29,685 bases of DNA from a virus, in the IMG/VR virus record IMGVR_UViG_3300011115_000810, positions 1 through 29,685 of that record. One strand, 5' to 3'. The notes beneath the pieces were generated by a model that worked only from the letters and a program-made list of their open reading frames with translations, was not told the DNA's origin and did no database searches. The position numbers were made by a program, and so were the translations under genes. Of this stretch, positions 22,244 through 29,274 are shown piece by piece; within the stretch, counting starts at the first letter, position 1, and each line of letters opens with the position of its first letter.

Positions 22244-23575
22244 TTAGGTCTGGGTGAAGGTGACAATAACTGCCGATGGAGTATTGAATGTTTCTGCAGT
22301 AGCAACAGCGACTGTAGCGTTATTCCCGAGCCCAACCATAACACTAGTAGATGAACTACCTCCGCTCATACCATTAGAGCGCACAGCATTAAGGCTCGCA
22401 GCAGCTGCCCACGAGGAGCCATTATATGTTTGAGTTGTTCCAATAACCGATCCAGTGGAACCACCAGCGGCCATAATCGATGACGTTGTTCCGGATGTGT
22501 TTATGTTGTAGGCACCAACCGCCAAGGCTGGTCCGGTTGCCCACGTTGACCCGTTGAATGTTTCAAATGCCGTAATAGTCCCAGAAGACGTGCCAACATA
22601 ATAGCCAGCAGAAACTGTCCCTCCTCCACGCGCTGATTCCCCAGAACCGCCAACAATAAGGCCCTGCGCCGTCCACGCCGAACCATTCCATGTATGCGTC
22701 GTCCGTGTAGTATAGTACCCCGCTGTTATGCCCGCTGAAGTTGCAGAGGAGCCAAAAGCACCGCCACCCACATGAGCAGCGGTAAGATTCGTAATCCCCG
22801 TCCATGTTGTTCCGTTAAAGGAAAAACACCGCGTGGTGTAACCGTATACCGGCCCATCACCAGACATGGACAGCGCAGACGTTGTTGTCCCGGCAACCCC
22901 ATTTCCATTAGTTGTATCAGTATAGGCAGTGGTCAGTGACCATGACGACCCATTAAAAATATCACAAGTGCCTACAAATGCAGCCCCGGTATATCCCGCG
23001 ACAGCGAGTGCAGCAGTTTTTGTCCCACACCCGCCGACTCCTTGGCGAGCCGTAGAGGAACTACCTTGCGTTGTCCAAGAGCCAAGATTTGCACAACCCT
23101 TAAACAGATTCGTGGTTGTGTTATACCAGACATCACCCTTTGTTGGTGAGGCAGGGTCAGACGCAAGTGACTGAAAGCTTGCAGCGGTACCAAGAATACC
23201 CGTTAGTGAAGCCCCACTACCCGTGAACGCCGTAGCCTTCAGTGTCCCACTTACATCAAGTAGCGTTGTTGGCGTTGCCGTACCAATGCCAACACGGTTC
23301 GTGGTAGCGTTGACAAAGACAAGCGCAGCGTCCGTTGTGCCCTTGATACGCAGGTCGACGGCAGCTTGAGCCGCGTTGATTGGCAGGGTTGCACCAGACG
23401 GCACTATGTCAGTTGTGACATATGCCCCAGCGATTCCCCGAACACCAGCGGCAAAGATTGCTGCCGTCGCTTTTTGCGTGACAGGCGTACCGCTAGGGTC
23501 ATGCTCAATCGGGAGCAGGTCATCCGCCGTAATAGCTGACGCTGCTGGCAGCGCACTAATCTGAATCGTGGACAT
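22244..23575 (-). CDS. Tail fibre/adhesin with Kelch-like repeats (paralogue 1)
   Basis: This 443-residue protein has three parts. Residues 1-55 are an N-terminal cap shared with two neighbouring genes (ISALPAASAITADDLLPIEH). Residues 60-160 are a common phage-fibre segment with VGIGTATPTTLLDVSGTLKA, GSGASLTG and GDVWYNTTTNLFKG. From about residue 165 on there are repeated units of the form YNG/FNGSTW-x-x plus a Gly/Ser-rich strand, as in a Kelch-type beta-propeller. The protein likely binds the cell surface. The coding sequence looks less GC-rich than the third paralogue, which suggests separate origins or fast divergence. Confidence 0.75.
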   Translation of the reverse strand: MSTIQISALPAASAITADDLLPIEHDPSGTPVTQKATAAIFAAGVRGIAGAYVTTDIVPSGATLPINAAQAAVDLRIKGTTDAALVFVNATTNRVGIGTATPTTLLDVSGTLKATAFTGSGASLTGILGTAASFQSLASDPASPTKGDVWYNTTTNLFKGCANLGSWTTQGSSSTARQGVGGCGTKTAALAVAGYTGAAFVGTCDIFNGSSWSLTTAYTDTTNGNGVAGTTTSALSMSGDGPVYGYTTRCFSFNGTTWTGITNLTAAHVGGGAFGSSATSAGITAGYYTTRTTHTWNGSAWTAQGLIVGGSGESARGGGTVSAGYYVGTSSGTITAFETFNGSTWATGPALAVGAYNINTSGTTSSIMAAGGSTGSVIGTTQTYNGSSWAAAASLNAVRSNGMSGGSSSTSVMVGLGNNATVAVATAETFNTPSAVIVTFTQT

Positions 23576-23578
23576 GGA

Positions 23579-24100
23579 TTAGGCTACCGTGAAGGTTTTG
23601 GTCGCGCCGTTTTGACGGCACTTGAACGTATCGCTCGTGCTGTTGTACCACACGTCGCCGTTGACCAGTGTAGTAGGGTCCGTGGCAACAGTACGAAATG
23701 CAGTACTCGTAGTTCCTAGGCCTGTCAACGATGCACCACTCCCAGCAAACAGCGTGGCGTTCACCGTGCCCGTGACATCCAGCTTCTGTGTTGGGGTCGC
23801 CGTTGCAATACCTACCTTATCCAATCCTGCATCAACAAAGAACAGGTTTGCGGATGTCGTACCAGCAATACGAGTATCGCTGTCTGCTAGTGCGGTATTG
23901 ATAATAAGTGATGCGCCAGAGCCGGTAATCGCTGATGCGGTCGTCGCGCCCGTCAAGGGCCGGGAATAGGTCGCCACTTGGGTGACCGTGGCCTTCTGGT
24001 CTTGCAGTGCGCCAGCACCGATGTCGGTCACCACAATGGTGAGGTCGGCGGCATCCGCGGTGGTCGCCGCTGGTAGGGCGCTAATCTTTGTGGTGGCCAT
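23579..24100 (-). CDS. Truncated tail-fibre paralogue 2
   Basis: This 173-residue protein has the same layout as the first 160 residues of its two neighbours: TKISALPAATTADAADLTIV, then VGIATATPTQKLDVTGTVNA, GSGASLTGLG and GDVWYNSTSDTFKC. It ends with KTFTVA and lacks the Kelch-like part. The ending resembles the final SKTFTVS of the third gene, as if the receptor-binding repeats were deleted or never acquired. It may serve as a connector or a recombination partner. The ATG at 24100 is preferred to upstream starts because homology begins there. Confidence 0.75.
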   Translation of the reverse strand: MATTKISALPAATTADAADLTIVVTDIGAGALQDQKATVTQVATYSRPLTGATTASAITGSGASLIINTALADSDTRIAGTTSANLFFVDAGLDKVGIATATPTQKLDVTGTVNATLFAGSGASLTGLGTTSTAFRTVATDPTTLVNGDVWYNSTSDTFKCRQNGATKTFTVA

Positions 24101-24105
24101 CGGGG

Positions 24106-25457
24106 CTAGCTCACGGTAAAGGTTTTGCTTGTCGAGGCAAGGCTCAGGATTTCCGTGCTGCCATAGACGGTGGTGGTGGAGGAGCCGCCAGCCACCAGCA
24201 CGGACGTACTGGATGGACCGCCAACGGCCCCGCCATGACGACCGGTTCCCATCGCGGCCCCTGCGGACCATGTGGTGCCATTGTAGGCCTCGGTCTCGGT
24301 GCGTCCGACGCCCCCGCCCGTCTGCCCGCCGCAGCCAATCGCCGCGGTCAACGTGCCGGCACCAGTGGCCAGCCCAACGGCGGTTGCCCGCGAGGCAATA
24401 GCGACCCACGCCCCACCGGTATAGGCATACATGCTCGTGCTGTTGTAGTTATTCGTCATCACGCCATCGCTTGCCGACGCGCCCGTTCCCCCGACCTGTT
24501 CGCCATTGACGGGATGCGCCGAGGCAGACGACCACGTGGACCCATTGAAGGTTTCTACGGTATTCGTGGTCGTGGTCGTATACCCGGAGAATACCCTCGC
24601 GCTCGTTTGTGTCCCGAACATCCCCGCCGAATTGCGACCCGCGAGAATCTGCGAGCCCGTCGTGGCCCATGACGTGCCATTGTATAGCTCGCTATTCGGG
24701 CTGGCCCCGGTGTAGGGACTTCCAAACACGACGGTTCCGCCCGTGGCGAGCGCGGCGGTGGCCGTCCCGCAGCCGTTCCCGCTATCTCGAAGGGTGGCCG
24801 GTATCCCTCCGGCGGCCCACGTGGTCCCGTTCCACCCATCACTCGTCAACAGCATCACCGATGCCGAGCTCCGCCCCCCAACCGCGATGGCCGCCGAGAC
24901 GGTCCCCGCTGAACTACTCTGTGCCCGGACCGTGGTCATGGTCGCTGACGCGGCAAATGCACCCAACGGGTTGGTGGACTGGCCCCTGAACGTATTGGTC
25001 GTCGAGTTATACCAGCAGTTCGCATCGACAGGCGTTGCGGGATTCCCCGCCACCGTGAGGAACGCGGATGTGGCAATCGTCGGCAAGCTCGTCAACGCCG
25101 AGCCATCACCACTGAACAACGTCGCCGTCACCGTCCCCACCACCTGCAACGCGACCGTTGGTGTTGCGGTGTTGATGCCAACGCGGTTGTTGCCAGCGTC
25201 CGTGAACAGCAGGTTGACCATCCCCGTGCTCGACACCACTACATCCTTGTCGGCTTGTGCGGTGTTGATGGTCAACGCCCCACCAGAGCCGTCAAGGGTG
25301 GTTGCGGTCAGTGCCCCACCCGCGCTCCGAATATATGCATCGTCCCCGTTGCTTTCTGCGTGGCGGGCGTTCCTGCGGGATCATTTACAATCGGGAACAA
25401 CGTCGCCGCCACGACACTCGTTGCGGCGGGAAGTTGTGGAATCGTTTTTGTCGCCAT
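24106..25457 (-). CDS. Tail fibre/adhesin with Kelch-like repeats (paralogue 3), needs -1 frameshift
   Basis: The N-terminal cap MATKTIPQLPAATSVVAATL, then FPIVNDPAGTPATQKATG, starts at ATG 25457 but runs into TGA at 25308-25310. The continuation (DDAYIRSAGGALTATTLDGS, then GGALTINTAQADKD and VGINTATPTVALQVVGTVTA) lies in the -1 frame and is open to 24106. Joining them at the GGGG run at 25344-25347 restores alignment with paralogues 1 and 2, giving about 435 residues with a Kelch-like C-terminal half (SELYNGTSWATTG, VETFNGSTWSSA). Causes could be programmed frameshifting, a natural mutation or a sequencing indel. The gene is notably GC-rich. Confidence 0.65.
25341..25350 (-). other. Likely frameshift point in fibre paralogue 3
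   Basis: On the minus strand the local bases AACGGGGACG contain a G4 run. In the zero frame the codons are ACG GGG ACG; slipping one base back keeps a GGG codon and continues as GAC GAT GCA. This is where homology to the two neighbouring fibres switches frame. A canonical X XXY YYZ slippery heptamer is absent. Confidence 0.5.
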
Positions 25458-26253: not shown

Positions 26254-27579
26254 TTACCACGAGACCGGCAACTGCGCTTCTGGTGCCCCAAAAAAGTGTA
26301 GCGGGTTCACTTGACTCGCGTCAGCCCCCGCAAAGACTAACTGGGTCGGGTCATCGCCTACTGGCCCGTCAGTCAGTAACTCGACCGGCACGGCCCCTTG
26401 TACGCGGTCCCAGCCATACAGCGCAAGAGCCAGTGCCATCACACCATCGTCATGCAAACTGGGTGGGGCTTCGTACCGCACCCCTGTATTGGTGAAGTGA
26501 AACTCAAAGCTTTCCAGCTCGCCAATCAGCCAGCCGTCCGGGATGGTCAACTCCCCACCTTGGAACGCGGCGATCAGCCGCTGCATCAAGCGGAGCTTTG
26601 ACGGCTGGGTAAAAATGTGGGGGGTGACCGTGACGCCCAATACCTGCAGGTCGGCCACGATCGCATCGCCAACGCCAGTTGCATCGGCTACTAGCGGGAC
26701 TTCGCCCACCTGCATCCGGATCCGTTCCTTGGTCTCGGCCCACGGCAACTGGAAGCGGTCGAGCGAACAGACGCGGCGGTGGCTGTCCAAGCCAATCAAC
26801 ACCGTGAAGTCCAGCGACCGCGCCAAGTCCACGCCATAGACGACGGGCTTGCGCCCACTCATCGGGCCAATCGCGCTTCGCACCTTATCCACGCCAAAGG
26901 GGTTCGCGCCATCGTCGGCAGGGATGCCCTCAAACTCTTGCGCAAAGACCAGCGGCGGCAGCTCTTGCTTGGCCGCCTCAATCTCACTGGCGGGGATAAA
27001 TGGATTCTCTCCGGTCGCCGCACGGAAGCTCTGCCAGTCGGGGCTGCTGCCGTCCATGCCGCGCTGGAACATCTGCACAAAGGCATGACGGCGGCCCTTC
27101 GGCGTTCCCATGATCAGGGCTCGGCCTCCCAAATCGACCAGCGTCGGGCGGATAGCGGCCTGCCACACCGCGGTCAAGTCCTTGGCAATCCCCGCCTCAT
27201 CCAGCACGACCAGTGCATACTTCCGGCCTCGGGCCGGATCTGGCGTATCGAGTGTCCAGACCTCAATCACCCCACCGGTCAGCAGCTCGAGCCGCTTGTC
27301 CTGCTCCGAGACTCGGGCGGTGATCGGTCCCAAGCGTTCCAGGATTTCCCGCCACGCTTCGAGCGCCAGCTTGTAGGACGGCGAGAACCACCCGACCGGC
27401 TGGCCAGCAATCGCCGCATCCAACGCCAGTCGCATCCCCAGCGCGGTCTTCCCAAAGCGCCGTCCACACATGACCACCCGAAACCGTGCCCCATGGTCAG
27501 CAATCGTACGCTGCCCAGCATGGAGCTTTGCCAACGTCACCGTGACCATTGCTGGCCGTTGTTTCGTATGACCGCGCAT
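26254..27579 (-). CDS. terL: Terminase large subunit (ATPase-nuclease)
   Basis: This 441-residue DNA-packaging motor and headful or end-cleavage nuclease has Walker A GRRFGKT at 39-45, Walker B LVVLDE at 123-128, and the coupling motif GTP at 158-160. The RNase H-like nuclease centre has acidic residues D251 (GVDLARSLD), D299/D305 (ADATGVGD) and D377/D378 (HDDGVMALALA). The length and motif order are normal, with no truncation. The start ATG at 27579 has AGGGG upstream. It partners with the small terminase 50 bases upstream and docks on the portal. Confidence 0.95.
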   Translation of the reverse strand: MRGHTKQRPAMVTVTLAKLHAGQRTIADHGARFRVVMCGRRFGKTALGMRLALDAAIAGQPVGWFSPSYKLALEAWREILERLGPITARVSEQDKRLELLTGGVIEVWTLDTPDPARGRKYALVVLDEAGIAKDLTAVWQAAIRPTLVDLGGRALIMGTPKGRRHAFVQMFQRGMDGSSPDWQSFRAATGENPFIPASEIEAAKQELPPLVFAQEFEGIPADDGANPFGVDKVRSAIGPMSGRKPVVYGVDLARSLDFTVLIGLDSHRRVCSLDRFQLPWAETKERIRMQVGEVPLVADATGVGDAIVADLQVLGVTVTPHIFTQPSKLRLMQRLIAAFQGGELTIPDGWLIGELESFEFHFTNTGVRYEAPPSLHDDGVMALALALYGWDRVQGAVPVELLTDGPVGDDPTQLVFAGADASQVNPLHFFGAPEAQLPVSW

Positions 27580-27585
27580 CTGTGC

Positions 27586-27598
27586 CCCTAATATAACC
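27586..27598 (-). promoter_or_regulatory. Shared AT-rich leader element before terL
   Basis: On the minus strand the sequence GGTTATATTAGGG ends about 7 bases before the terL ATG. The same element, differing at one position, precedes terS at 28121-28133. It contains TATATT, a fair -10-like hexamer, and a GGG that could act as a ribosome binding site. It is either a promoter element or a common translational leader. Confidence 0.4.
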
Positions 27599-27629: not shown

Positions 27630-28118
27630 TTACTCCCCCTCTGGCTCGGCCTCCACATGTTCCACGTGGAACACTCCAGATGGCAGGGTGGTCATTGGGG
27701 CAGCTAAAACCGCGTGGGCCATCGCTTGGATGGCCGGGGCGCGGTCCTCCTCCAGCACCTTCACCGAGATCGTCTGCGACCCCTGATGCTCCACCACCTG
27801 CTTGTCCCCGTAGTCCTGTGGAGCTGCCTTGCTCGAGGCCCACTTCAGCGTATCCACGGTTAGCCGGTCCACCATCACGGTATCGTTCACCGAGTCCCGC
27901 GCAATCTGGATGGCCTCTTCTGCTAAGGCATTGCCCATCAGGACCCGTGCCCGTCGGTACCGCATGTATAGGTCCTCGTCGTCCGCCATCCAGCCCCGGA
28001 CCGCACCCGCAGACCGCCGCAGGGTCCGGCACGTGTCCGCGACGGTTCGCCCTTCCGCTAATCCCGCTAAGACCGCCTCAACCACCGAGGCCCGTTCCGA
28101 TGCGTCAACTTTCGCCAT
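27630..28118 (-). CDS. terS: Terminase small subunit
   Basis: This 162-residue DNA-recognition subunit of the packaging machine has an N-terminal helix-turn-helix region (about residues 12-45, AVLAGLAEGRTVADTCRTLR, then RSAGAVRGWM). It is followed by RARVLMGNALAEEAIQIARD and VDTLKWASSKAAPQDYGDKQ, the conserved oligomerisation core typical of phage TerS with this fold. The C-terminal 25 residues (from about 138) look poorly conserved and encode FHVEHV, the codons of which form a perfect parS palindrome. I prefer ATG 28118; an in-frame GTG at 28178 would add a Lys-rich 20-residue extension. Confidence 0.85.
   Translation of the reverse strand: MAKVDASERASVVEAVLAGLAEGRTVADTCRTLRRSAGAVRGWMADDEDLYMRYRRARVLMGNALAEEAIQIARDSVNDTVMVDRLTVDTLKWASSKAAPQDYGDKQVVEHQGSQTISVKVLEEDRAPAIQAMAHAVLAAPMTTLPSGVFHVEHVEAEPEGE
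27658..27673. promoter_or_regulatory. Perfect chromosomal-type parS (ParB-binding) palindrome
   Basis: The sequence TGTTCCACGTGGAACA is a perfect 16-bp inverted repeat identical to the consensus parS centromere used by chromosomal ParB (Spo0J) in many bacteria. It lies within the terS coding region, covering residues 150-155 (FHVEHV), 79 bases before terL. No parA, parB or noc gene is visible in the window. Other CACGTG cores in the window lack the outer TGTTC/GAACA arms. The match is exact; the function in this phage is inferred. Confidence 0.8.
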
Positions 28119-28120
28119 AC

Positions 28121-28133
28121 CCGTAATATAACC
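28121..28133 (-). promoter_or_regulatory. Shared AT-rich leader element before terS
   Basis: On the minus strand GGTTATATTACGG lies immediately upstream of the preferred terS ATG. It matches the terL element in 12 of 13 positions. TATATT followed by six bases and ATG is the spacing expected for a leaderless transcript driven from a -10 box, but a clear -35 is not visible upstream, only A-tracts. Confidence 0.4.
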
Positions 28134-28776: not shown

Positions 28777-29274
28777 ATGACAACCGCTACCGATACCCCC
28801 CGCGTTTATGTCGCCTGTTTGGCAAGCTACAACGATGGAAAACTATTCGGAAAATGGATAGACGTACCGAACGACGCGGACGTATTACGAGCCGAAATTA
28901 CCGCAATGCTCGCCGCCTCTCCGTCGCCATACGCCGACGAATGGGCAATCCACGACACGGACGGCATCCAAGTAACGGGCGAAAATCCTGACCTGGAGAA
29001 ACTGTGTGAGGTCGCCGCGAGCATTACACAGCACGGCTATGACGCATGGACGGCTTACACCGAATGTGTCGGCGTGGATTATGCCACGGCGGACGGCTTC
29101 ACGGAAAGCTATCAAGGCCACTACGACGGCGGCATGTTAGAGTTTGCCGAACAGTTTTTCCGCGAGTGCCACGAAATCCCGCAAGCGCTAGAGTTTCACA
29201 TAGACTGGCACTCGGTCGCCAGAGAATACGGCTACGATTTTTTCGAAGAAGAAGGGCACGTGTTTAGCCGCTAG
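28777..29274 (+). CDS. ardA: Antirestriction protein ArdA
   Basis: This 165-residue, highly acidic protein mimics bent B-form DNA and blocks type I restriction-modification enzymes. Family signatures are PRVYVACLASYNDGKLFGKW, the following IDVPNDADVLRAEITAML, the central DEWAIHDTDG and the acidic C-terminal part EYGYDFFEEEGHVF. The length is the family's usual 165-170 residues. It is the first gene behind the strong early promoter, with GGAG and AGGAAA ahead of the ATG, which fits expression right after DNA entry. It pairs functionally with the methyltransferase at the other end of the rightward module. Confidence 0.93.
   Translation: MTTATDTPRVYVACLASYNDGKLFGKWIDVPNDADVLRAEITAMLAASPSPYADEWAIHDTDGIQVTGENPDLEKLCEVAASITQHGYDAWTAYTECVGVDYATADGFTESYQGHYDGGMLEFAEQFFRECHEIPQALEFHIDWHSVAREYGYDFFEEEGHVFSR

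Follow-up and report, generated by a model that had tools for sequence, protein, structure and literature searches.

Why would a phage carry, inside the gene for its terminase small subunit, a perfect copy of a bacterial chromosomal centromere? ParB-parS is a near-universal chromosome segregation system of bacteria. The window, that is, the whole stretch of DNA analysed here, is an IMG/VR viral contig of 29,685 bases, and its parS palindrome lies among the following features.

27630 to 28118, minus strand: terS, terminase small subunit (Sf6-type), 162 amino acids from ATG (phrog_1482, E=8.9e-21; PF20901)
26254 to 27579, minus strand: terL, terminase large subunit (PHROG 2, phrog_2, E=2e-33)
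27658 to 27673, no strand assigned: perfect chromosomal-type parS palindrome TGTTCCACGTGGAACA, 16/16 in four lineages
27656 to 27676, minus strand: longest stretch of terS without variation among all four lineages (21 nt), enclosing the palindrome

The chromosomal parS consensus, TGTTYCACGTGRAACA, is said to go back to work by Livny and colleagues in 2007, and the 16-bp palindrome agrees with it at 16 of 16 positions. It is also identical to parS2 and parS3 of Pseudomonas aeruginosa, perfect forms that are best bound by the ParB of that species (PMC4368675). No second parS-like site occurs in the window within 3 mismatches of TGTTCCACGTGGAACA, and 100 shuffles of the window gave a mean of 0.13 matches even at 3 mismatches. 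Simple arithmetic on the base composition (GC 0.577) predicts about 6e-6 exact copies per window. The initial annotation had claimed a perfect chromosomal parS at this position and a chance expectation far below one copy in 30 kb, and both statements hold. The identity to parS is exact. As the site lies on a phage record and not beside the oriC or parAB of a chromosome, it is parS in sequence, and presumably in action, without being a chromosomal centromere.

Within terS, which starts with the ATG at 28118 and stops at 27630, the palindrome occupies the 3′ end and is read as V-F-H-V-E-H (residues 149-154 of 162). The terL gene begins 78 bp downstream, at 27579, and the site stands at the head of the structural operon, which runs on the minus strand. 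Just upstream of the terL and terS starts are the only two copies in the window of the 10-mer GGTTATATTA (minus strand, 27589-27598 and 28124-28133), which may serve the phage as a promoter or as a leader element. Elsewhere in the window, positions 28777-29274 hold a gene for an ArdA-type antirestriction protein, and 22244-25275 hold paralogous tail-fibre-like genes with repeated motifs, in regions that are variable among relatives. An RNA hairpin was considered for the palindrome and rejected, the folding of the region being ordinary (z = -1.21).

A TerL-based search of viral contigs yielded 69 relatives. Of these, the four with 92-98% TerL identity have all retained the 16-mer, at an unchanged position within terS. 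Counted with the window they amount to four separate lineages, since one terS is common to two of the records; the four are mutually related and are all those with the clade's terS in the collections searched. In the four-lineage alignment, every motif codon (6/6) has an invariant third position; the figure for the remainder of terS is 64/148, and for the 25 codons directly upstream of the motif just 2/25. This is the pattern of conservation by selection on the DNA sequence, on four lineages only. Random synonymous codons in close relatives had been named in advance as the outcome that would speak against a selected site; instead, every motif codon is kept in the four lineages. The C-terminal tail of TerS, initially described as unconserved, varies on either side of the motif, but the six motif residues themselves are invariant. 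In the 98% relative (L122), a gene that the window lacks separates terS from terL.

L194:5540-5935: Dam-type adenine methyltransferase gene of about 390 nt, between terS and terL

The palindrome of L122 is intact despite this insertion, at about 490 bp from terL as against 78 bp in the window, so spacing to terL is not the conserved feature.

Beyond the close clade the site disappears. None of about 30 TerS proteins from the wider family (42-55% identity) has the FHVEH tail, and no intact site occurs in the family's whole records, six of which measure 38-41 kb; a degenerate match, at 2 mismatches, is present in two records. Further portal-based loci outside the clade have no site within one mismatch, and scans with a TerS profile and with portal returned no additional clade members with terS. 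The sole relative in the genome collections, a contig in a Verrucomicrobia MAG with 70% TerL identity, also lacks the site. As the wider family has neither peptide nor palindrome, the site is a trait of one clade and is not required by this kind of phage in general. Loss of both in relatives had likewise been named as a point against the parS reading; it is true of the distant ones, where it shows clade-specificity, while the close clade keeps both.

The phage does not appear to supply a ParB of its own. ParB_N (PF02195) was absent from the window (G000) and from relatives G001-G004, and was found in only 1 of 37 records tested. The canonical ParB family TIGR00180 gave a match in one of 50 IMG/VR records, below the cut-off. 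Among complete cultured phage genomes with the site, ParB_N is present in 2/18 and absent from 16/18. The 41 scanned proteins of the window and G001 include no integrase, repressor, ParA or ParB family, and the phage therefore looks lytic, with about 38 kb covered out of the roughly 40 kb of the genome (the window and G001 overlap, and family genomes measure 38-41 kb). The observation that no parA or parB is visible in the window is thus borne out. The suggestion that the phage encodes its own ParB elsewhere is disfavoured, with PF02195 and TIGR00180 negative and the window and G001 together covering most of that genome.

Exact parS copies are found in many other viruses. The exact 16-mer occurs at no fewer than 120 loci, at least, among IMG/VR viral contigs, whereas two composition-matched control palindromes occur at 0 and 1. 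A search of 50,697 phage records with N-flanked 16-mers found the C variant in 58 (a complete list) and the T variant, TGTTTCACGTGAAACA, in 286; both counts are swollen by numerous near-identical isolates, and some of the Listeria records resemble host DNA. The control palindrome TTGTCCACGTGGACAA was found in none of the 50,697 records, and the other control gave no match over the palindrome; by arithmetic, a uniform model predicts about 0.5 occurrences of any one 16-mer in 2.3 Gb. Independent parS-bearing lineages are far fewer than records, yet clearly more than 10, and parS is strongly over-represented in phages relative to the control palindromes.

The C variant is found mostly in Pseudomonas phages (17 records), other Gram-negative phages and microviruses, and the T variant in phages of Listeria, Microbacterium, Arthrobacter, Gordonia, Bacillus and Lactobacillus. 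The variants agree with the parS forms of the respective host groups, and there is a loose tendency for the site variant to match the host group. The complete C-variant list contains no Escherichia or Salmonella phages. E. coli has neither ParB nor a parS-like sequence (PMC8367383). An exception is the RaK2-like phages of Klebsiella, with an exact parS inside a baseplate wedge gene; Klebsiella is not known to have a chromosomal ParB.

Among these other phages, copies of the palindrome occur between genes as well as inside them, where each of the three reading frames is used. In 12/16 records the distance to TerL exceeds 1.3 kb, and in 4/16 it is within 1.3 kb, at most a mild excess near TerL. 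With these positions and the insertion in L122, the link to packaging that was originally proposed is not supported. Several phages have more than one copy. For instance, a 5.9-kb inovirus (L216, PQ006149.1) has six exact TGTTTCACGTGAAACA sites, and its sister record lists five. In Bacillus phage vB_BcoS-136, four exact parS stand between annotated genes in a single 1-kb stretch (L210:4001-5006), and a Xenohaliotis phage has three exact copies. No near-miss sites were seen in the stretches read of these three multi-copy phages. In the T5-like Vibrio phage phi 3, parS sites lie in the terminal repeat (L218:821 and 2934), a region that in T5-like phages is expected to enter the cell first.

Taken together, these observations make it probable that the palindrome is a selected, host-type parS, serving as a loading site for host ParB that makes the phage genome a competing centromere. 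The CTPase clamp of host chromosomal ParB would load at the terS site, and clamps would then slide over the adjoining phage DNA, turning each phage genome into a rival of the host centromere. The likeliest benefit is that captured host ParB, ParA and SMC would position or organise the replicating phage DNA; concurrently, multiplying phage copies would pull ParB off the host origin. We infer every step from ParB binding onward, binding included, from sequence comparison. Of the parS interpretation in the initial annotation, exact consensus identity and codon-level conservation stand, while a phage-made ParB is disfavoured and a connection to packaging is not supported.

On balance, and by a narrower judgement, the same may apply broadly: a chromosomal parS of the host group's own type, carried without a phage ParB, would constitute a strategy that is widespread among phages and has yet to be described. 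In tailed phages, microviruses and inoviruses alike, host ParB clamps would be loaded on the viral DNA, and ParA and SMC, recruited via ParB, would place, organise or protect that DNA or else disable host segregation. The literature searched contains no description of a phage-borne chromosomal parS, with preprints and most subscription journals outside its scope. Because close relatives keep the site and many viruses without ParB carry it, the data suggest that phages commonly borrow or divert the host chromosome-segregation machinery. If true, a host could be taken over through a 16-bp centromere copy with no phage protein needed, and host segregation and SMC loading would be affected during infection. 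Cultured phages with the site found here include Pseudomonas putida phage KoPa-4, Bacillus subtilis phage Chedec 11 and Gordonia phage Woes, whose hosts have known ParB systems.

A variant of this explanation places the benefit differently: the site would mainly titrate host ParB. Phage sites would outnumber the few parS of the host and strip its origin complex, and segregation, SMC loading or division checkpoints would fail. This is a tentative possibility, consistent with the perfect, high-affinity form of the site and with a genome in which the absence of integrase, ParA and ParB families makes a partitioned prophage not obvious. It also has a parallel in the integrative element SGI1, whose replication multiplies its parS-like sites and destabilises its IncC helper plasmid (PMC10954446). 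A single site per phage genome would, however, be a weak sink early in infection, and the clusters of four to six sites and the terminal-repeat sites in other phages hint that the DNA acted on is that of the phage itself.

The position of the site at the head of the late operon, between terS and terL, also invites a timing switch, in which ParB would spread over terS-terL and damp late or packaging genes at low copy until replication diluted it and lifted the block. P. aeruginosa ParB does repress genes flanking parS, yet in most species few genes respond to silencing by chromosomal ParB (review PMC7022226). With the distance to terL so variable between the window and L122, and the site mostly far from TerL in other phages, such a switch is unlikely here, and the same two findings speak against late-operon silencing as the site's general function.

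Headful phages often have their pac site within or beside terS, and a palindrome bound by terminase could happen to equal parS. That prospect is slim: the perfect match to parS would have to be accidental, the identical 16-mer occurs in unrelated phages away from terminase genes, and it is missing from family members whose TerS and TerL are related. Equally hard to credit is a constraint on the protein, in which the TerS tail would require FHVEH, for example to contact TerL, with the palindrome as a by-product. The invariance of six residues amid a variable flanking tail fits that proposal, but the synonymous positions are invariant too, the peptide is missing from the related TerS proteins, and other phages carry the palindrome in whatever frame or between genes. 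Chance or another non-functional origin, which could appeal to there being just one site in one genome, is very improbable given the negligible expectation, retention in four lineages and enrichment across phages over controls.

A host-ParB loading site, the reading preferred here, can be set against known ParB-parS systems. The chromosomal ParABS system of P. aeruginosa offers the same 16-bp perfect palindrome in parS2 and parS3; unlike chromosomal parS, the phage site lies within a coding gene, in single copy, with no parAB nearby and off the chromosomal origin. The phage-plasmids P1, N15 and cyanophage Mic1 (PMC7156551) also have a ParB-type centromere on a phage genome. However, they encode their own ParA and ParB together with a dedicated, unrelated parS, whereas neither a phage ParB nor, among the 41 proteins scanned, a phage ParA was found here. 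SGI1 is closer, as a mobile element that has the site but no parB, the combination also found in this phage. Its parS-like sites bind the ParB of an IncC plasmid, another replicon, and thereby stabilise SGI1 and expel the plasmid (PMC10954446). SGI1, however, is an integrative element that mimics a plasmid parS, whereas here a chromosome-type site is carried by a phage whose use of ParB we infer. Finally, in engineered lambda-parS reporters, phage DNA is loaded with ParB both when injected and when replicating, and foci form (PMC13190303). Those reporters are artificial, with ParB supplied in trans, whereas the parS of the window phage is natural.
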